20,460 bases of DNA from a bacterium. Lineage in GTDB: Bacteria > UBP7 > UBA6624. Location of the stretch: positions 1 to 20,460 of the forward strand of contig JACNFQ010000018.1 of assembly GCA_014384545.1 (NCBI GenBank), given 5' to 3'. The notes beneath the pieces were generated by a model. The model ran no database searches. It saw nothing but the letters and a program-made list of their open reading frames with translations, and was not told the DNA's origin. Made by a program: the position numbers and the translations under genes. Shown piece after piece: positions 1,251 to 12,718 of this stretch (its first letter is position 1; every line of letters starts with the position of its first letter).

Positions 1251-1667
1251 GGCACAAATGCCTAGTTGATACCCTAGATACCCCATACCCGAAATCACAG
1301 GATGACCTGCACCAGCAACGACGAGTTTCCTGCGCCAAGCTTCTCGCCTTCCATGAATCGCCGAAAGGTGGGCTTCTACCAAAGGGAGAGCTGTGCCCTT
1401 TGCTCCATCCCGCAAGGCAAGAGAAGCGTGAGAAAAGGCGCCTGGGTTGAAAAGAACGCCCACAAACCCCTTCTCTTTCGCTTCTGCCAGACAAGCGACT
1501 AGGGCTGCCTCGTCTCCTTCCTGCTCCAAGACCAACTCCCACCCCTTCTCTTTTGCCCATTTCACCAATCTTGCCAAGGCTTCACTTCTTTTCTCGTCCC
1601 CATAGATTTCAGGTTCTCTTCTACCAACACCATCAAGATTGGGTCCCTCTAATACCAAGAACTTCAT
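1212..1667 (-). CDS. aroQ: 3-Dehydroquinate dehydratase, type II
   Basis: This enzyme dehydrates 3-dehydroquinate to 3-dehydroshikimate, step 3 of the shikimate pathway, in the cytoplasm. At 151 residues it has normal type II length. Residues matching the known active site are present: Asn10 in EGPNL, Arg17 and Tyr22 in RREPEIYG, the Asn of the FNPGAF segment, the Asp of LALRD, Glu and His in VEAHLS, and an Arg in the REAWRRK segment. The usual QSNHEGEL segment is altered to EQEGDEAAL. The ATG at 1667 is preferred over an upstream in-frame ATG at 1685 because MKFLVLEGPNL matches the family start and because it overlaps the aroKB stop as ATGA. It is the last gene of the aro operon, and its end overlaps the convergent small gene by 39 bases. 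Confidence 0.95.
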   Translation of the reverse strand: MKFLVLEGPNLDGVGRREPEIYGDEKRSEALARLVKWAKEKGWELVLEQEGDEAALVACLAEAKEKGFVGVLFNPGAFSHASLALRDGAKGTALPLVEAHLSAIHGRREAWRRKLVVAGAGHPVISGMGYLGYQLGICALVCLVKDGAFRP

Positions 1668-3199
1668 GCGATTTGGGCTAACCACTCATCAATGGGAGGG
1701 CGTTTCGTTCTATAAACCATTATGGTGTCCCATTCTCCCCCATCACCATTTGGAATCTGAGTCGGTAAAAGGACTTGGAGTTCTCCCTTGTCCCATTTCT
1801 TATCTTTCAGAATCGCTTCCTTGAAAGCTTCTGGGTTAAGTTCTCTATCTAATGAGGTCGGCAACCCCACCCTTACCAACTCCTTTTCCAGAAAAGCCGC
1901 TGTTCCCTTGGGGGCTACTCCCAATCTCTCTGCCCAACGAGTATTGGTAAGCATCCCCAATCCCACGCCCTCTCCGTGGCGTATCCGAGGAACTGTTGAA
2001 CTCTCTAATGCGTGCCCTACTGTATGCCCAAAGTTCAGCAAGATTCGAAGTCCCCTCTTTTCTAGTAAGTCCCTCTTCACAATCTTCAGTTTCCCCTTTG
2101 CAGCCCATTGAATCCCTCTCTCTATTGGGATAAGCCTCCCCTTCCCCATCCCCTCCCACTCTTCCTCTCCCATTGCTAAGGCTGCCTGCCGCCATACCCA
2201 AGACATTTTGATGATTTCCGCGGCTCCATTCCTAATTTCTCTCAAGGGCAACCCAGCCAAGAGTGTGGGATCAATCACCACCGAATCGGGGAGCCGAACG
2301 ACCCCCAACAAGTTCTTCCCTTTGCCGCGATTGACACCGAACTTCCCTCCCAATGCAGCATCTGCCATGCCCAATACAGTTGTAGGAACTAGATGGATGG
2401 CGATCCCTCTAAGATAAAGAGCTGCCGCGAGACCTGCCACATCGGTGATGCCCCCTCCCCCCAAAACCCACAACGCCCCGTCCTTGCCTACTCCAGATAC
2501 TGAAAGTCCTTCTAGGATGCGTTCAACAGTCCTCAAGTTCTTTGCTCGGTCCTTCCCTACCAGAGGGAGATGAGAGACTCCTCCTTCAGGCGCTTCGCTT
2601 ACTAAAGCCCCCAGTCGTTGATCAAAAAGCCCCACCCACTTACCTGTCGTGGTGGGAAGAGGTCGGCTCATTTGACCCCAACCCATCAAGACTCCATCCC
2701 CGATTTTCTGACTCGCTTTATCTGGGTATAACTGACGAAGGACACGACCCGCAACAGCACCTTGTGTAAGCCCCTCTGTCTGGACAGGAATCCCCAACGC
2801 GCCTTCTCCTTCTCGCTCTAAGTAGAGCTTCTTTCGCTCTTTCCACAAGGGGCGTCCTTCCCCCTTGCCCAACCGAGCCTCAATCACCGAAAGGGGAGCT
2901 CTGAGTCGAGCAACACTTTTCCCTTTCAAGAAATCTCTTGTTTCCCCGTTCAAATCACTTCCTCCACCCATTGCCACGACCTCGTTTCCCCTAATCTGGG
3001 TGATTACCCTTTTTTCTTGGTCTCTAAATGCCTCCATCCCTCGCTCTTGTATCACCGCTCTGGGCGACCGACCACCCAACGCCTTGGCAACGACTTTGTC
3101 CGTATCCACAAAAGGGCGTTCTAGGAGGCGGGCCAAACGCCTGCCCACCACACTCTTCCCCGTTCCCATGAATCCTGCCAAGAAGAGAGCTTCAGACAT
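1664..3199 (-). CDS. aroKB: Bifunctional shikimate kinase / 3-dehydroquinate synthase fusion
   Basis: One 511-residue chain carries two pathway enzymes. Residues 1 to about 165 are shikimate kinase: Walker A GFMGTGKS (9-16), DTD (32-34), Arg59 in FRDQE, GGG (78-80) and the lid RPLW (116-119). Residues from about 185 to 511 are 3-dehydroquinate synthase: the glycine-rich NAD site GGGGITDVAG (247-256), VPTT (271-274), GGKFGVN, GKN (294-296), and the zinc ligands Glu328 (AAEIIK), His392 (FGHTVGHA) and His408 (RHGEGV). The usual GDLAG of the NAD site reads TDVAG. Together they convert DAHP to dehydroquinate and phosphorylate shikimate, which are not consecutive steps. SK-DHQS fusions are known, for example in Thermotoga. 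The ATG at 3199 overlaps the aroC stop as TGATG; a TTG at 3211 is a weaker alternative. Confidence 0.95.
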   Translation of the reverse strand: MSEALFLAGFMGTGKSVVGRRLARLLERPFVDTDKVVAKALGGRSPRAVIQERGMEAFRDQEKRVITQIRGNEVVAMGGGSDLNGETRDFLKGKSVARLRAPLSVIEARLGKGEGRPLWKERKKLYLEREGEGALGIPVQTEGLTQGAVAGRVLRQLYPDKASQKIGDGVLMGWGQMSRPLPTTTGKWVGLFDQRLGALVSEAPEGGVSHLPLVGKDRAKNLRTVERILEGLSVSGVGKDGALWVLGGGGITDVAGLAAALYLRGIAIHLVPTTVLGMADAALGGKFGVNRGKGKNLLGVVRLPDSVVIDPTLLAGLPLREIRNGAAEIIKMSWVWRQAALAMGEEEWEGMGKGRLIPIERGIQWAAKGKLKIVKRDLLEKRGLRILLNFGHTVGHALESSTVPRIRHGEGVGLGMLTNTRWAERLGVAPKGTAAFLEKELVRVGLPTSLDRELNPEAFKEAILKDKKWDKGELQVLLPTQIPNGDGGEWDTIMVYRTKRPPIDEWLAQIA

Positions 3200-4290
3200 C
3201 AAGGAAGCCAATCGGGGGTGGCATCACGGTGAGCTTCGTAACGCTCTTTCCACGCCTCCCAATGCCCTCCACCCAAGAAAGATGCCCCTGCTTGGGCCAA
3301 TACTAAGCCCGTAAGTGCTTTCGCAATAACCCCAATCGCTCCCACCACACAGACATCACTCCTCAAGTGAGGAGCTGGTATTGATTGACCGGTCTGGAGA
3401 TTGACCGAAGGGAGGGGGGTTCGTTGTGTGGAAATGGGCTTAGCCCATAGAGTCGCTCTGATTGGTTTCCCGTTCGTCCTACCCCCTTCTATTCCCCCAG
3501 CCATGTTCCCTTCACCCAGAGGGTCATCATGAGCTCCACTTCCCTTCATAGATGCTTGAGTAAGCCCCTTCCCCAACGAGACAGCCCTTACTGAAGGAAT
3601 GGAGAGTAGAGCACCACCCAAGAGGACGGACAACCGGTCGGCAGGTTGAGAGCTCTCTCCCCACCCTCCCGGAAGACCTCTTGCCTCAATTTGGACGGAA
3701 CCTCCCAAGGTTGTCCCTTCTCTTCCTGCCATCTTGATGGCATCAATCGCAAGAGCTTCGGTGGAAGAATCGGGCCAACGAAGACTGTTGGCAGAGGGAT
3801 TCTGGTTTTTCCCCGTCGTATGAACCGCTCCAATGGATAGAGACCAGGATTCAATCTCAATCTCTCCCAAATCCTCCAAGAGAGCGGAGGCAACACCGCC
3901 CAACGCGGTCCGCATCGCACTTTCGCGGGCACTCCCCCTTTCGGCTTGGGCTTCGGGGGGTTGCCCCGTCCTCAGAAACCCCGACAAATCACCATGTCCT
4001 GGTCGAGCCACCCAACATGCATCTGCCAACGGCTCTTTCTCTCCAGCATTTTCTAGAAGTAGCAAAAGAGGCGCCCCTGTTGTTTTTCCCTTGTAAACGC
4101 CCCCATGAACTTCCACCTTGTCCTTTTCCCATTTCTGTCGATGACTTCTGCCGAAACCTGCTGATCTTTCCGCCAGAAACTCTTGCGCCTTATCAAGCCG
4201 AATCGTCCACCCTGCTGGTAGCCCCTCAAGAACCCCCATGAGGAAAGGTCCATGACTATCCCCAGCAGTCCACCACCGTAACGGCGTCAC
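3199..4290 (-). CDS. aroC: Chorismate synthase
   Basis: The enzyme converts 5-enolpyruvylshikimate-3-phosphate to chorismate with reduced FMN, the last step of the pathway. At 363 residues it has normal length. It shows the family start LRWWTAGDSHGP with catalytic His13, then RPGHGDLSG with His99, the ERGSARESAMRTA segment, and the glycine-rich NMAGGIEGGRTNGKPI. The C-terminal segment that is normally RHDPC reads RSDVC: the Asp is kept and the His is lost. I chose the GTG at 4290 because it overlaps the aroE stop as GTGA, has GGAG 9 bases upstream and gives the family-typical N-terminus. An ATG at 4299 and a far upstream start at 4341 are possible but fit less well. Confidence 0.94.
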   Translation of the reverse strand: MTPLRWWTAGDSHGPFLMGVLEGLPAGWTIRLDKAQEFLAERSAGFGRSHRQKWEKDKVEVHGGVYKGKTTGAPLLLLLENAGEKEPLADACWVARPGHGDLSGFLRTGQPPEAQAERGSARESAMRTALGGVASALLEDLGEIEIESWSLSIGAVHTTGKNQNPSANSLRWPDSSTEALAIDAIKMAGREGTTLGGSVQIEARGLPGGWGESSQPADRLSVLLGGALLSIPSVRAVSLGKGLTQASMKGSGAHDDPLGEGNMAGGIEGGRTNGKPIRATLWAKPISTQRTPLPSVNLQTGQSIPAPHLRSDVCVVGAIGVIAKALTGLVLAQAGASFLGGGHWEAWKERYEAHRDATPDWLP

Positions 4291-6322: not shown

Positions 6323-6868
6323 TTATAGTAAGGAGGAGAAGATGTTCTCCACAATGCGGGATGTATTATCTGATAGGAATGAGTCTGGATGGAAGAGAAG
6401 CCCATACCAAGGACGCCCCTCCACCCCCAAAGCCAAGGGGTGTCCTTCAGAATCCCAACCCCAAACTTCAAGAGGCGGGGGAAGTTCCCCTAATCCCAAC
6501 GAGTTATATCTGCCCACACGCACTCTCTCTTCGATTCCTTGGAGAATACCAATTCCCTTATGAGTCATTCTGACCGCCTCCCCATGGCAAGGACGCCCCA
6601 TAGTCAAAGTCGCTCCAAAGTGAGTCGCTATCATTTGGCATCCTAAGCAGATACCTAGCAAGGGGCGCTTTCCCCACCGAGCCAATAGTTGCATAGATTC
6701 TGGCCAATCCTCAGGTCTACCAGGTCCTGGTCCCAAAACCAAGCCATCAAACGGCTCAACTTCTAGAGTAGAAGCGGCACTCACAACGTCAAACCCACTA
6801 TCTTCTAACCAAGCGAATACATTCTGCGTAAAGGAGTCGTTGTGATCAACGAGTAAGAGACGTGTCAA
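6323..6868 (-). CDS. pabA/trpG: Glutamine amidotransferase subunit of anthranilate/aminodeoxychorismate synthase
   Basis: Class I glutamine amidotransferase of 181 residues, usual length about 190. It should release ammonia from glutamine for a TrpE or PabB partner acting on chorismate. Visible are DHNDSFTQN at the start, the oxyanion region LGPGPGRPED, the nucleophile Cys74 in GICLGCQ, HGE and RYNSL typical of TrpG/PabA, and the triad His160 in LFHPDSF. The third triad residue, normally Glu in HPES, is Asp162. No trpE or pabB is nearby, so tryptophan and folate roles cannot be separated. The start is TTG at 6868, overlapping the purF stop as TTGA. Its place before the chorismate genes fits a chorismate-using enzyme. 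Confidence 0.88.
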   Translation of the reverse strand: MTRLLLVDHNDSFTQNVFAWLEDSGFDVVSAASTLEVEPFDGLVLGPGPGRPEDWPESMQLLARWGKRPLLGICLGCQMIATHFGATLTMGRPCHGEAVRMTHKGIGILQGIEERVRVGRYNSLGLGELPPPLEVWGWDSEGHPLALGVEGRPWYGLLFHPDSFLSDNTSRIVENIFSSLL

Positions 6869-8259
6869 GGTGAGGCGTCACCACGTGTGGAGACAGGTAT
6901 GACTCTCTCCTTGATACCTAGTGGATACTCCCCCGAAAAACAGGCGGTGCAAAATGCCTCTTCATTCTTCGGTATCTTCATGAGATCCCTGAGAGAAAGG
7001 TAGGTTAGAGAATCTGCTCCTAAGTGCCTAGAAAGGTCATCTTGAGAGATTTGATTAATGACCAGCTCTTCTTTTGTGGGTGTATCAATCCCATAGAAAC
7101 AAGGATGAGCAACGGGGGGAGAACCGATTCGGATATGAATCTCCTTGGCTCCCGCCCTCCTAATCATTGAGACGAGTTTCCGCATCGTGCTTCCTCGCAC
7201 GATTGAATCATCAACCAAAACGACTTTCTTTCCTTCGAAAAACCCCGGAACGGGATTGAATTTCTCTTTGACTTTTTCGTCCCTAATGGATTGATCAGGT
7301 GCGATAAACGTTCGCCCTACATAGTGGTTCCTCATCAATCCAAATCCGAAAGGGAGATTCCGTGCCTCAGCATACCCCAAGGCAATCACATTGCTTGAAT
7401 CGGGTACAGCGATAACGACATCCGTTTCAAGCGCATCATCCTTAGCCGCCAAAGACGCTCCTAATCCCTTCCTGAATGCATACACTCCTTCTCCAAATTG
7501 GTCTCCATCGGGACGAGCAAAATAGATCAACTCAAAGATACAGTGGTGTTTGGGGGCATCGGGCTCCAAATCAAACTGTTGGGGATTGCCCTTGCCAAAA
7601 ACGACCAATGACCCGGGAGAAACTTCATGAATCTCGTCAGTTACATGGATATCCACCCCCACTGACTCTGAAGAAACGACATATCCTCCTTTTGGAAGAG
7701 GTGCCATTGAGAGTGGTCTAATCCCCCAAGGATCTCTGAACGCTATTAGGTTATCTCCCACAAGAGCTACAACGCTGTATGCGCCTTTAATCTCTTCCAT
7801 CAGTTGACGAACAGCTTCGGGCAAGGTCTTCCCTTCCCCAAGTTCCATCGCAAGGAACCGGGCCAACAACTCACCATCATTTTGACCCGAGAACTGAAGA
7901 CCTTTTTTCTCTAATCTAAGGCGCAAACTGTGGTAGTTTACCAAATCACCGTTCCCCGCTAACGCAACGGGTGGATGCCCTTCACCTTCTACTAGATGAG
8001 GCTGAGTATTCGCTAAAGTAACAGGCCCCTGTGTGGGATACCGGACATGCCCAATGGCGGATTGCCCTCCTAGGGAGTCTAGCGCGGTGGGATTGAAAAT
8101 CTCCTTCACCATCCCTAATCCTCTGTGGAGAGTATGGATGCCGTCTTGTGCTGACACAATCCCAGCCCCATTCTGCCCACGATGTTGTTGAGCGAAAAGA
8201 CTTGTGACCGCCTTTAGCGCAGCCTGACTGGCTCCATGAATGCCTACTACACCGCACAT
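6865..8259 (-). CDS. purF: Amidophosphoribosyltransferase (glutamine PRPP amidotransferase), Fe-S type
   Basis: It catalyses the first step of purine synthesis, PRPP plus glutamine to phosphoribosylamine. The 464 residues begin MCGVVGIHG, so Cys2 is the nucleophile directly after Met with no propeptide, unlike Bacillus subtilis PurF. HVRYPTQG (71-78) and GNGDLVN (102-108) mark the glutaminase domain; VVLVDDSIVRGST (346-358) is the PRPP site. Cys240, Cys387, Cys437 and Cys440 match the four ligands of the structural 4Fe-4S cluster of the Bacillus-type enzyme, which suggests oxygen sensitivity. It heads the operon and overlaps the next gene by 4 bp. There is no Shine-Dalgarno sequence before the ATG; the N-terminal Cys fixes the start. 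Confidence 0.96.
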   Translation of the reverse strand: MCGVVGIHGASQAALKAVTSLFAQQHRGQNGAGIVSAQDGIHTLHRGLGMVKEIFNPTALDSLGGQSAIGHVRYPTQGPVTLANTQPHLVEGEGHPPVALAGNGDLVNYHSLRLRLEKKGLQFSGQNDGELLARFLAMELGEGKTLPEAVRQLMEEIKGAYSVVALVGDNLIAFRDPWGIRPLSMAPLPKGGYVVSSESVGVDIHVTDEIHEVSPGSLVVFGKGNPQQFDLEPDAPKHHCIFELIYFARPDGDQFGEGVYAFRKGLGASLAAKDDALETDVVIAVPDSSNVIALGYAEARNLPFGFGLMRNHYVGRTFIAPDQSIRDEKVKEKFNPVPGFFEGKKVVLVDDSIVRGSTMRKLVSMIRRAGAKEIHIRIGSPPVAHPCFYGIDTPTKEELVINQISQDDLSRHLGADSLTYLSLRDLMKIPKNEEAFCTACFSGEYPLGIKERVIPVSTRGDASP

Positions 8260-8269
8260 GGGCAGGGAG

Positions 8270-8297
8270 ATTCTAGGCTTCGGCGTGGGTGGGACAA
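8270..8297 (-). promoter_or_regulatory. Promoter of the purF-aro operon
   Basis: On the minus strand TTGTCC (8292-8297) and TAGAAT (8270-8275) are 16 bases apart. The -10 box ends only 10 bases before the purF ATG, so the leader would be about 3-4 bases, with no room for a ribosome-binding site, riboswitch or attenuator. The -35 box abuts the -10-like TAGGAT of the divergent M20 gene, so the two promoters overlap. Confidence 0.5.
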
Positions 8298-8303
8298 TAG
8301 GAT
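8298..8303 (+). promoter_or_regulatory. Leaderless-type -10 element of the M20 gene
   Basis: TAGGAT ends 6 bases before the ATG at 8310. The GGAG between them is only one base from the ATG, too close to act as a ribosome-binding site. No clear -35 box is seen. Confidence 0.45.
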
Positions 8304-8309
8304 TGGAGT

Positions 8310-9527
8310 ATGGACTTTACCTCCCTTGATCAAGGAATCGATGATATGGAGTCTTTGGCGATTGAACTCCAAACGCGCCTGACAGCTGTCCCTGCAATCG
8401 GACCGTTGAATGAGGGCAGAGGCGAAAAAGCAAAGATGGAGGTCTTGGAGAGTTCGTTGGCTGAACTGGGATTCCCAAAAGGAGAGCGGATTGATGCCTC
8501 CGATGATAGGTGTGATGGGGGGATTCGTCCCAATCTTGTAGTCCGTTCGGGCGACAAAGAAGGACCCACATTGTGGATACTCTCCCATATCGATGTCGTG
8601 CCACCGGGAGATATCGATCTTTGGGAGACCGATCCTTGGACGGTTTCCCGAGATGGTCCCTTGATTCGAGGGCGGGGGGTTGAAGACAACCAACAAGGGC
8701 TCGTCTCTTCTATTCTCGCCCTAAAATCTGTAAGAGAAGCACCTATTTCTCACAATGTGGGTCTCCTTTTTGTGAGTGATGAAGAGACGGGAAGTGCTTT
8801 AGGGCTAGGACATGTTCTCAAGACCCGTCCCGAACTTATCAAGCCTACAGATCTTGTACTCGTTCCCGATGCTGGGAACGCTGACGGAACGATGGTAGAA
8901 GTTGCCGAAAAATCAATGTTGTGGATGAAGATCGTTGTTGAAGGCGAACAATGCCATGGCTCAATGCCTGCCTTGGGAACGAATGCAGCTATAGCAGGTG
9001 CAGACCTCCTCCTACGGCTTGATTCAGCTTTCAGAGATAGTTTTCCTGAAATAGACCCGTTGTTTGACCCCCCCACATCCACTTTTGCACCCACCCGAAG
9101 AGAAGAGAATCAGCCCAACATCAATATGGTTCCTGGACGAGATGTTCTCTATTTTGATTGTCGGGTCCTACCCCAAACACCCTTATCTGATGTCAGACGC
9201 GTTGCGAGGGAGATTGCAGATGAGGTAGAGACCCAACGGGGTGTTTCTATTACTCTTAGCGACCATATGGCTGCAAGCGCTGCCCCCCCAACTCCTCTTG
9301 ATGCTCCAGTTGTTACTGCCCTTCTTTCTGCTCTAGAAGAAGTAACAGGTAAAAGGGGGAAGCCTGCTGGGATTGGTGGGGGCACCGTTGCCGCTCTCTT
9401 TAGGGAGTCTGGTATTCCAGCTGTCGTTTGGAGCACCCTTGAAGACCAAGCCCATCAACCTAACGAGTCTTGCCGTTTGAGTAACCTCCTTAGTGATGCG
9501 AAGGTAATGGTTCGCCTTATGGCTTAG
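8310..9527 (+). CDS. M20-family metallopeptidase/deacylase (DapE/ArgE-like)
   Basis: A zinc amidohydrolase of 405 residues with the full M20 ligand set: His93 in LSHIDVVPPGD, bridging Asp126 in GRGVEDNQQG, catalytic and ligand Glu158/159 in SDEETGSALG, Asp187 in VPDAGNAD, and a C-terminal His in EDQAHQPNES. The dimerisation (lid) domain lies around 205-315 (ECHGSMPALGTNA-like region, with NINMVPG). The GVEDNQQG form occurs in the M20 subgroup annotated as succinyl-diaminopimelate desuccinylase-like, but such proteins often cleave other N-acyl amino acids or dipeptides. No lysine or arginine synthesis genes are adjacent, so I give no symbol. There is no signal peptide, so it is cytoplasmic. 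Its TAG stop interlocks with the TAA of the convergent gene. Confidence 0.88.
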   Translation: MDFTSLDQGIDDMESLAIELQTRLTAVPAIGPLNEGRGEKAKMEVLESSLAELGFPKGERIDASDDRCDGGIRPNLVVRSGDKEGPTLWILSHIDVVPPGDIDLWETDPWTVSRDGPLIRGRGVEDNQQGLVSSILALKSVREAPISHNVGLLFVSDEETGSALGLGHVLKTRPELIKPTDLVLVPDAGNADGTMVEVAEKSMLWMKIVVEGEQCHGSMPALGTNAAIAGADLLLRLDSAFRDSFPEIDPLFDPPTSTFAPTRREENQPNINMVPGRDVLYFDCRVLPQTPLSDVRRVAREIADEVETQRGVSITLSDHMAASAAPPTPLDAPVVTALLSALEEVTGKRGKPAGIGGGTVAALFRESGIPAVVWSTLEDQAHQPNESCRLSNLLSDAKVMVRLMA

Positions 9528-10006
9528 GGGCATGGTTCTCTTCGGCTATCTTCTGTCCCTTCCAGTTCAGTCCACAAGGCCTCTTGGGTCCTTTCCCATA
9601 CGTCTCTAGGCACGCCATTTACAGACAACTTCCCTCTCCCTTTATGGAACTGAGAGCCAGCAAACTGGTGGAAAGCGATGTTGGGGATTTTCACACCCTT
9701 TGCCACACTCAGTTCCATCCCTTCTTTCTGGGTTCCTCTAAATCCAAGCCTAAACCCAGCATTTTGGAAGAGTGAAGGTAAGAGGTGTGAATAGTCAGAG
9801 AGATGGATGCCCAAGTCAATGTCGGGATCATTCGAAATGAAATCTCCTTCACGAAACCAACCCAATAGAGTGCCCGAAGTCAACCAAAAAGGAATCTGGG
9901 CACTATTCAAGATGGAAACAACCTCTGATAATACCCGTCGAGCCCTCATCCTGCGCCCCTTGACACCCCCCAGAAACGCTTGGATACAATCACGGGTTAT
10001 CCCCAC
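9524..10006 (-). CDS. Small LicD/fukutin-like nucleotidyltransferase-fold protein
   Basis: The 160 residues contain the core motif of the LicD/FKTN/FKRP family: LTSGTLLGWFREGDFI followed by NDPDIDLGI, with candidate metal ligands Asp62 and Asp64 (SGTLLG at 44-49). Members transfer phosphocholine or phospho-sugars to cell-surface glycans, and similar minimal versions are of unknown specificity. This one is short and lacks membrane segments or added domains. Around residues 85-125 sits KGVKIPNIAFHQF, which may be the acceptor-side strand. No glycan synthesis cluster lies nearby, so the substrate is unknown. The start is GTG at 10006, with a TAGGAT 6 bases upstream and no Shine-Dalgarno sequence. 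The end interlocks with the M20 gene. Confidence 0.7.
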   Translation of the reverse strand: MGITRDCIQAFLGGVKGRRMRARRVLSEVVSILNSAQIPFWLTSGTLLGWFREGDFISNDPDIDLGIHLSDYSHLLPSLFQNAGFRLGFRGTQKEGMELSVAKGVKIPNIAFHQFAGSQFHKGRGKLSVNGVPRDVWERTQEALWTELEGTEDSRREPCP

Positions 10007-10012
10007 AACGAA

Positions 10013-10018
10013 ATCCTA
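10013..10018 (-). promoter_or_regulatory. Leaderless-type -10 element of the LicD-like gene
   Basis: The minus strand reads TAGGAT, then 6 bases, then GTG at 10006. No ribosome-binding site lies between. The 66-base divergent gap to the M61 gene holds both starts and a T-rich tract (10031-10042). Confidence 0.45.
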
Positions 10019-10060
10019 GAGAGACTCCTCTTTGTTTTTTTCTTGTCCAAAAGAGGATTC

Positions 10061-10066
10061 TAGATT
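10061..10066 (+). promoter_or_regulatory. Leaderless-type -10 element of the M61 fusion gene
   Basis: TAGATT ends 6 bases before the GTG at 10073. An out-of-frame ATG at 10069 lies between and cannot encode the protein. The match in spacing to neighbouring genes is the main reason to prefer the GTG over the in-frame ATG at 10082. Confidence 0.4.
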
Positions 10067-10072
10067 GCATGG

Positions 10073-12718
10073 GTGGACGGGATGTTCACCTTGTATAGGA
10101 TTGGCACTATGCTTATTTCTCTCTTTTTGGCACCTCTTGTTTATACGGTAGATGTTGGTAACCCCTCCGATGGACTTGTCCATTTCTCAGTGGAAGCGCC
10201 TCAGGCTGGTCGCAATCCCACTTTCTCTGTGCCCGTTTGGACACCCGGACATTACAAAGCAGATATGCCCGTTGCCACCATCCAAGATGTAGCTGCATTT
10301 GATGGGGACGGAAATCTCCTTCCTGTCCAGAAAACAGGGCTTTCTGAATGGACAGTCTCTTCGCGTCGAGGATCCGTAACGCTTTCATACAAAGCGCACT
10401 TGGCAAAACCAGGACCAACTGGATCTGAACTCACACCAGACCATCTCTATTTCCATCCCACCGATTTCTTCCCAATATTGAATGATGATTTGGACCAATC
10501 TAGCCGCATCCTTCTTGCAGGACTCCCAAATGACTGGCGTGTAGCAACCGCCCTAAAGCGATGCGCAGACGGAGAGGGTTGGTGTGCCCCTAACGCTCAT
10601 CGCCTTTACGACAGCCCTTTTGAAATCTCAGATTACCAGGAACTTACCTACGAAAGTGGTGGTGCCACTTTCCACATCATTATCTCAGGAAATGGTGGAC
10701 CTTACGATCTGGAGGTTTTTCCGTTTGTTGATGATTTCAAGAGATTTACGGATGCTCAGATTGAGGTTTTTGACGGCATTGCACCTGGTGGTATTAGCGA
10801 CTATTGGTGGTTGTTATTCCCTGGCGGTGGGGGTGGCTTGGAACATAGAGATTCCACCACTATTTACTTTAACAAACGAGTTTTTGAGGGGAATAGGGGG
10901 AGTTATGACAGCCTCGTTTCCGTCTCCAGTCACGAGCTCTTTCACGCGTGGAATGTGAAGAGGATTCGCCCTGCTGTCATGGTTCCTTATTCATATACAG
11001 AACCCCCCCCCACATCCTTGTTGTGGGTTAGCGAAGGGATAACTTCATACTATGGCCGTCTTGCTAGGGTGCGTGGCGGAAATATGACGGTCAAGGAGTA
11101 CTTTGAAGGTCTGGCTGGGGTGATAAACGCTGTCGCCAACAGCCTAGGGTATCCCCAAACGAGTGCGGCTCTTTCTTCTTATGATACTTGGATCGGTCAG
11201 GGGACCGCTTCGGAACAGAGAAGTATCTCCTACTACACGACGGGTGAGATGCTTGGGTTCTTCATGGAAGCGAAACTTCGAGAAGAGAGTGGGGGCATAG
11301 TTTCATTAGATGACTTGATGACCTATCTTTATCAAACGAAGTGGAACGAGGATAGAGGCCCCGGGTTTACCGAAGAAGATCTTCTCGTGTGGTTAGAGCG
11401 GTCAACAGAAGGGGACAACGGATGGGATGCCTTCTTTGATCAATGGGTACGTGGTAGCGACGACCTTCCCTTAGAGGCGTGGCCTTGGTCATTGGTGGGT
11501 ATGGAGGCTACGGGGACAGAGCAACCTAGCTTGGGCATGGAAGTTCGGGGCAGTTGGCCCCTAACGGTCTCCCATATCTATCCACAGGAAGCTGCCTCCG
11601 AGGCCGGCTTTTTTACAGGAGATGAGATTCTTCTCATTGGTGATGAAAAAGCGACATTAGCCAACCTAAAAAGCCTTGAAGAACCCACAGAAGTTTCATT
11701 CCTTCGCCACGATCGCCTATTGAAAACAGTCTATCTTCCTGGTGTTAGGACGAATTGGAAAGTGTCCCTTTCCCTTCCCCAAGAGGAAGATGAGAGCTTG
11801 GCTTGGACCCAAGATTGGTTGGCGATTCCCCCACCAGTCATGGAACCAGTCCAAGAGGATGTGGAATCAGAACTTGAGGATATCTACGATGAATCGGCAA
11901 TCGCTGAAGAGGATATCTCGACCGCTCTTGAGATGGCTAACACAGAGAACAGGCGTGTCCTCTTGGTCTATGGAGGAAACTGGTGTGGTTGGTGTCATGC
12001 CCTACACAGACTCTTTGCGAGCAACACAGGTATTCGAAAGAAACTCCAATATGAGTATGAAGTGGTGATGGTTGATATAGGCAATTTTGATAAGAATATG
12101 GAGATTGCTCAACGATTTGGCGCCAATCTAAAGAAGACAGGCGTCCCCTTCTTGACGGTTCTGGATCGTGATGGAAATCTAGTGGTTAATCAGGAAACAG
12201 GCTCGCTAGAAGAGGGAAATGGTCATAGCCCTGATGCGGTGATGGCGTTCCTAACAGCGTGGCAAGCCACACCTTTACGAGCCGATTCTGTGCTTATTTC
12301 CGGGTTATCAATGGCGAGAGAGAAAGAGAGACTCGTTTTCCTCCATACGGGGGCACCTTGGTGCGGTTGGTGCAAACGCCTTGAGTCTTTTCTTCTTCGC
12401 CCAGATATCGCACCTATTATGGAAAGAGCGTTTGTAGATGTAAAGATTGATGTGGACCGAATGGAGGGTGGCGCAGAGTTATCTGCCTCATTGCGTGAAT
12501 CCGAAAAGGGGGGTATCCCTTGGATTGCGATTCTCTCTGCAGACGGTGAGGTCTTGATTCATAGTGACGAAGCCTCTGAAGGGAATATTGGGTTTCCCGT
12601 GGCAGACCACGAAATTGCTTTCTTTATGAGGATGTTAGCCCTATCACCTCTTTCTGATGAAGACCTCTCATTCATTGAGACCGCACTCAACGAAAGTGCC
12701 ACCAAGATACTGGGCTAA
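10073..12718 (+). CDS. Exported M61 glycyl-aminopeptidase-like protease with PDZ and two thioredoxin-like domains
   Basis: An 881-residue chain. Residues 5-24 form a signal peptide or anchor (RIGTMLISLFLAPLVYT). About 25-230 is the M61 N-terminal beta domain, with a Cys164/Cys171 pair. The gluzincin site is HELFHAW (287-293), with Glu321 in WVSEGITSYYG as third zinc ligand. The helical M61 C-terminal domain follows to about 480, then a PDZ-like segment (about 487-560). After an acidic linker (about 590-625) come two thioredoxin-like domains, each with the redox motif WCGWC (637-641 and 763-767) and a cis-Pro candidate (TGVPFLTVL, GGIPWIAIL). Standard M61 proteins end after the PDZ domain at about 600 residues. 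The second half therefore suggests a periplasmic enzyme joining proteolysis to disulfide chemistry. The start is GTG 10073 or ATG 10082. Confidence 0.9.
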   Translation: MDGMFTLYRIGTMLISLFLAPLVYTVDVGNPSDGLVHFSVEAPQAGRNPTFSVPVWTPGHYKADMPVATIQDVAAFDGDGNLLPVQKTGLSEWTVSSRRGSVTLSYKAHLAKPGPTGSELTPDHLYFHPTDFFPILNDDLDQSSRILLAGLPNDWRVATALKRCADGEGWCAPNAHRLYDSPFEISDYQELTYESGGATFHIIISGNGGPYDLEVFPFVDDFKRFTDAQIEVFDGIAPGGISDYWWLLFPGGGGGLEHRDSTTIYFNKRVFEGNRGSYDSLVSVSSHELFHAWNVKRIRPAVMVPYSYTEPPPTSLLWVSEGITSYYGRLARVRGGNMTVKEYFEGLAGVINAVANSLGYPQTSAALSSYDTWIGQGTASEQRSISYYTTGEMLGFFMEAKLREESGGIVSLDDLMTYLYQTKWNEDRGPGFTEEDLLVWLERSTEGDNGWDAFFDQWVRGSDDLPLEAWPWSLVGMEATGTEQPSLGMEVRGSWPLTVSHIYPQEAASEAGFFTGDEILLIGDEKATLANLKSLEEPTEVSFLRHDRLLKTVYLPGVRTNWKVSLSLPQEEDESLAWTQDWLAIPPPVMEPVQEDVESELEDIYDESAIAEEDISTALEMANTENRRVLLVYGGNWCGWCHALHRLFASNTGIRKKLQYEYEVVMVDIGNFDKNMEIAQRFGANLKKTGVPFLTVLDRDGNLVVNQETGSLEEGNGHSPDAVMAFLTAWQATPLRADSVLISGLSMAREKERLVFLHTGAPWCGWCKRLESFLLRPDIAPIMERAFVDVKIDVDRMEGGAELSASLRESEKGGIPWIAILSADGEVLIHSDEASEGNIGFPVADHEIAFFMRMLALSPLSDEDLSFIETALNESATKILG

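Follow-up and report, generated by a model that had tools for sequence, protein, structure and literature searches.

An M61 metallopeptidase joined to two thioredoxin domains in one reading frame: a so far unique architecture built of known parts

The fusion gene and its domains

The gene lies on a contig of 20,460 bases, which is the window analysed here (the whole stretch of DNA), in a small genome of 1.39 Mb that is 79% complete, distributed over 107 contigs and from a sparsely sampled phylum. A signal-peptide-like start is followed in the encoded protein by Peptidase_M61_N, Peptidase_M61, a PDZ-like segment, a short acidic linker and two thioredoxin domains. The frame is free of internal stops, and the whole protein matches only itself within its own genome. 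The features are listed below; residue numbers refer to the fusion protein.

10073..12718, forward strand: whole reading frame, 881 aa; GTG start, alternative ATG at 10082, stop at 12716-12718
10073..10147, forward strand: signal-peptide-like N-terminus from sequence and hydropathy, hydrophobic stretch from about residue 10
10142..10630, forward strand: Peptidase_M61_N domain, residues 24-186 (PF17899, E 4.9e-28)
10562..10585, forward strand: Cys164 and Cys171, a pair absent from the other M61 proteins aligned
10916..11254, forward strand: Peptidase_M61 catalytic domain, residues 282-394 (PF05299, E 7.9e-32; matches to 4fgm and 8j9c)
10931..10945, forward strand: HELFH zinc-binding motif, residues 287-291; H, E and H invariant in 28 M61 sequences
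11033..11035, forward strand: Glu321, third zinc ligand by homology, invariant in 28 M61 sequences
11474..11788, forward strand: PDZ-like segment, about residues 468-572, aligning with the PDZ parts of 4fgm and other M61 proteins
11789..11836, forward strand: C-terminal M61 segment ending in W-L, about residues 573-588, the usual end of other M61 proteins
11837..11884, forward strand: acidic linker, about residues 589-604, lacking a hydrophobic signal segment
11879..12271, forward strand: first thioredoxin domain, about residues 603-733 (Thioredoxin_7; AlphaFold2 pLDDT 95; 3fk8 Z 19.9)
11981..11995, forward strand: WCGWC of domain 1, residues 637-641; Cys invariant in the tandem family
12146..12148, forward strand: Pro692, cis-Pro position of domain 1 (GVP), invariant in 46 sequences; cis geometry inferred
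12272..12715, forward strand: second thioredoxin domain and C-terminal helix, about residues 734-881 (Thioredox_DsbH/Thioredoxin_7; AlphaFold2)
12359..12373, forward strand: WCGWC of domain 2, residues 763-767; first Cys is TGA in part of the family
12518..12520, forward strand: Pro816, cis-Pro position of domain 2 (GIP), invariant in 46 sequences; cis geometry inferred

Four Pfam models (Peptidase_M61_N, Peptidase_M61, Thioredoxin_7 and Thioredox_DsbH) matched the fusion protein far above their cut-offs, and chance is excluded for the predicted domain assignments by the homology E-values. An earlier note on this DNA had placed an exported M61 peptidase, a PDZ-like segment and two thioredoxin domains in one real frame, which the Pfam search and the alignments supported; its frame, coordinates and numbering of HELFH, Glu321, both WCGWC motifs and Cys164/Cys171 were correct. 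Together with Cys164 and Cys171, the two CXXC pairs make up all six cysteines of the protein.

The peptidase half

The protein belongs to the M61 family, scoring 110.6 and 98.7 bits with PF05299 and PF17899 against cut-offs of 22 and 23, respectively. In an alignment with 27 other M61 proteins the Glu-His pair 257-258 was invariant too, in addition to the zinc-binding residues listed above. The M61 zinc-peptidase site is intact, and this half is predicted to be an enzyme. The closest solved structure for residues 38-537 was 4fgm. Pfam PDZ models gave no match to the fusion protein at E 1; the PDZ-like segment was recognised by its alignment with the PDZ region of the M61 protein 4fgm and of the 27 other M61 proteins.

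These other M61 proteins end 302-335 residues past HExxH, mostly soon after a conserved W-L, which the fusion protein reaches at about residue 588 and then runs on. The solved M61-PDZ peptidases 4fgm (aminopeptidase N family) and 8j9c/8j9d (putative glycyl aminopeptidase) likewise have Peptidase_M61_N, HExxH plus Glu and a PDZ-like end; they stop after the PDZ and a short C-terminal segment, whereas the fusion adds two thioredoxin domains. An M61-PDZ protein extended by a second enzyme-like domain, as in the fusion, was observed at L128 (G141:C398; 2085-5240, 1,052 aa), but there the extension, judged by eye, resembles an S41-type protease that has a PDZ of its own, and not a thioredoxin.

The earlier proposal that Cys164 and Cys171 could form an internal redox target found no support: none of the 27 other M61 homologues shares the pair, and it was rejected as a conserved redox pair. 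At a separate locus (L026, G008:C258) an M61 gene contains one in-frame TGA, which may reflect a sequencing error, a pseudogene or something else; it sits outside any redox motif and was not read as selenocysteine.

The thioredoxin half and its family

Thioredoxin_7 (3.2e-17) and Thioredox_DsbH (2.1e-14) each matched the tail over two stretches. Structure prediction, proposed earlier as a check, was run on the tail with AlphaFold2 and gave a pLDDT of 95.3. Domain 1 superimposed on 3fk8, a disulphide isomerase of Xylella fastidiosa, with Z 19.9 over 128 residues at 1.9 A (VIA-align), followed by DsbD-gamma and DsbH; 3fk8 was also the closest solved structure for residues 604-724. All three share the fold and the CXXC site of domain 1; unlike the fusion, they have one thioredoxin domain and no peptidase.

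By pattern scan, residues 590-881 were found homologous to a two-domain protein at 68 loci of the genome_contigs collection, with the full tandem present at 62 of them. These loci are mostly from Planctomycetota, many labelled Phycisphaerae or Phycisphaerales, and a few others carry the labels Aminicenantes, Hydrogenedentota or unclassified. The typical member is a stand-alone protein of about 325 aa, mostly with a signal-peptide-like start. Identity between the tail and 45 tandem proteins lies at 38-49%, and the 46 aligned Cys-type sequences have 28 invariant columns, including both CXXC pairs and Pro103 and Pro227 of the tail. It carries both motifs, the cis-Pro position in each domain and a YDE-type start, without a signal peptide of its own; it is fused behind M61, a homologous module in a different architecture. 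Judged from sequence, the tail is a member of a defined two-domain thioredoxin family with the motifs G[AG]NWCGWC and then GAPW[C/U]GWC. The stand-alone Planctomycetota protein (L060-L121) has the same domains, motifs, mature YDES N-terminus and C-terminal helix, but has its own signal peptide and, in part, TGA in motif 2, neither of which is found in the tail of the fusion.

The difference between the two domain motifs, pointed out in the earlier note, is real, but it is an old property of the tandem family and not special to the fusion. That the domains act in series, as also suggested there, is possible; the evidence consists of the two kept motifs and the confinement of TGA to the second.

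No NCBIfam model was matched over its cut-off by any tandem member tested. The DsbH equivalog NF043050 gave 35 bits with the fusion protein, below its cut-off of 190 bits. Among the matches of the fusion protein with E up to 1, the Trx7/PDZ (seleno)protein model NF041199 was absent; the highest score that tandem relatives reached with it was 22 bits (cut-off 300). Like the fusion, the NF041199 protein combines Thioredoxin_7 with PDZ, and it has selenocysteine members; it differs from the fusion in its CxxU pattern and in lacking M61.

Rarity of the fusion

The survey of architectures proposed in the earlier note yielded no further M61-thioredoxin example in the collections searched. Neither 386 genomes sampled across the domain nor 392 genomes of Planctomycetota, the phylum of L060, yielded one (in both searches the best candidates per genome were scored), and none turned up at the 62 tandem loci, in ten tandem-bearing genomes or among 72,556 plasmids. 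All GTDB species were scanned with short patterns; the searched collections are samples and not all of nature. The full-length fusion protein scanned over genome_contigs gave no relative; relatives emerged from the tail alignment. No paper on an M61-thioredoxin fusion was found in the literature. The combination of M61 with a twin thioredoxin is new to every collection searched, and each half on its own is of a known kind.

Long M61 or thioredoxin frames in G783, G694, G539, G634, G491, G561, G393 and G612 were considered as candidates and rejected, none having both halves. The frame from G783 (L167, 1,005 aa) combines carboxypeptidase-regulatory-like domains with one C-terminal thioredoxin domain (ATWCGPC), and that from G694 (L168, 1,005 aa) resembles it, with a C-terminal thioredoxin domain; the domain scan covered L167 only.

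At the tandem loci examined no M61 gene lies beside the tandem gene, and gene neighbourhood thus lends no support to a general partnership. In other genomes M61 genes and tandem modules occur together, unlinked.

Genomic setting

Three genomes of the phylum of the fusion were compared; neighbouring genes were named partly with Pfam and otherwise by eye. In the sister genus (G001) the shared gene order begins with dehydroquinase, aroKB, aroC, aroE, aroA and a glutamine amidotransferase, and continues with EamA, thyX, acyl-CoA dehydrogenase, 3'-5' exonuclease, an HlyD-like gene and an RND transporter. Between amidotransferase and EamA, G001 has one Gfo/Idh-like gene, and the window has, at 6865-12718, four genes: PurF-like, M20 peptidase, LicD-like and the fusion. 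Since this block is missing from G001 within a conserved order, the fusion belongs to a variable block. Neither the M20 peptidase nor the fusion has a relative in either sister genome, both of which are incomplete. Promoter and terminator scans gave nothing exceeding chance. Elsewhere the same genome also encodes a full-length DsbD, whose thioredoxin end carries WCIPC. Within the shikimate gene cluster, which is retained in G001, a single frame at 1664-3211 appears by eye to join a shikimate kinase-like and a 3-dehydroquinate synthase-like part (aroK-aroB fusion).

The junction and the proposed function

The C-terminal end of the peptidase is complete, and the thioredoxin part starts, without signal peptide, where the mature stand-alone protein starts; in the alignment the linker falls on that protein's mature N-terminus. 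The maximum 15-residue hydropathy was 0.5 in residues 560-625 versus 2.0 at the N-terminus. After a lost stop or a frameshift, a start codon and signal peptide would remain, which disfavours a two-gene artefact; likewise, a missed stop between two genes is disfavoured because the junction is clean and an inner signal peptide is absent. The precise join, the whole parts and the shed inner signal peptide, seen in one sequence only, suggest that the joined form has been maintained. The fusion is a real, well-formed and so far unique architecture built of known parts.

We consider it fairly probable that the gene is a lineage-specific fusion of two exported enzymes in which a DsbD-fed module reduces and M61 then trims. 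This explanation starts from the frame, the domains with their intact motifs, the clean junction, the DsbD gene and the rarity of the fusion in the samples, and adds an inferred location, electron flow, reducing direction and sharing of substrates. DsbD is an electron donor to periplasmic thioredoxin-like proteins. A twin-thioredoxin module of the Planctomycetota type would have lost its own signal peptide and become joined to a complete M61-PDZ peptidase; electrons from DsbD would keep it reduced, one or both WCGWC sites would open disulfides of substrates (peptides or misfolded proteins of the envelope) that the PDZ/peptidase part holds, and the opened substrates would then be trimmed at the M61 site. 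A coupling of disulfide reduction to proteolysis is plausible given the full DsbD in the genome. The most specific form of this idea, an exported 'reduce-then-cut' enzyme whose module, supplied with electrons by DsbD, hands reduced substrates in cis to M61, is put forward tentatively and may well be wrong. What counts against the explanation is the single fusion sequence in the collections searched, with which selection on the combination is not measurable, and no conserved neighbour points to substrates.

The main alternative is tethering without cooperation, in which a rearrangement or deletion in a small genome joined two periplasmic genes with unrelated substrates. M61 and the module are separate genes elsewhere, so the fusion is not required for either to function; moreover, the tail is also joined to a HEAT-repeat region in one relative (L068), and the M61-PDZ protein of G141 continues into its S41-type protease-like region (by eye), so that such joins have no common theme. 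The precision of the join, the wholeness of both parts and the shedding of the inner signal peptide speak against mere tethering, which we regard as rather unlikely.

It would also be conceivable that the module oxidises or isomerises in the manner of PDI, the M61 part being a domain for holding or checking substrates. Two tandem CXXC domains resemble PDI, many PDI and QSOX structures were among the Foldseek matches, and a DsbB-like gene (CPLCILQRMG, by eye) lies near the tandem gene in L098, L101 (cluster of three loci). However, the TM-scores of PDI and QSOX were merely about 0.2-0.4 over the query, every M61 active-site residue is intact, and family knowledge of CGWC, of Thioredoxin_7/DsbH-type domains and of DsbD favours reduction; we judge this alternative improbable. 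An assembly or sequencing artefact joining two genes is very improbable: the source assembly is fragmented and the fusion has no second copy among the collections searched, but the frame is continuous with no start codon and signal peptide between the halves, the linker matches the mature stand-alone N-terminus, and the flanking gene order is the same as in the sister genus.

M61 peptidases are common and their substrates are poorly known. A natural fusion to a disulfide-exchange module provides a testable clue that M61 peptidases may process cysteine-containing envelope proteins.

Probable selenocysteine in relatives of the tail

Exactly one in-frame stop was found in 9 of the 62 tandem genes (L063, L074, L078, L079, L108, L113, L114, L117 and L121); in all nine it is TGA, at the first Cys of motif 2. 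A second survey yielded more, and the four that were read (L151, L152, L159 and L162) have TGA at the same codon. In six of the nine genes the true stop codon is itself TGA, so a simple reassignment of the codon does not account for them. Seven of the nine genomes gave a SelA match, as did some genomes with Cys-type genes. TGA at motif 2 very probably encodes selenocysteine. Hairpins fold downstream of the nine TGA codons, but Cys forms fold likewise, and no bacterial SECIS is claimed.

The fusion gene itself has TGC, cysteine, at that position and no internal stop, and SelA gave no match in any of the three genomes of its phylum, including the host genome (79% complete). In the tree the fusion tail stands beside L068 at 98/72 and with the larger Sec clade at 86/48, a weak placement. 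At L068 (2795-4576) the tandem-thioredoxin module lies behind the HEAT-repeat region of a protein with a signal-peptide-like N-terminus.

Two reviews, of 2022 and 2026 (PMC9312934, PMC13188914), include among their selenoproteins a Thioredoxin_7/PDZ protein with CxxU; no entry matching the tandem family was found in them, and their generic thioredoxin entries could include it. Of wider scope than the fusion is the tandem-thioredoxin family with its recurrent probable selenocysteine site: the comparison reveals a widespread exported family that falls outside the cut-offs of the NCBIfam models and is largely undescribed. With a probable selenocysteine at one fixed position of domain 2 in many members, it offers a natural set for asking what selenium contributes at one of two linked thioredoxin sites.
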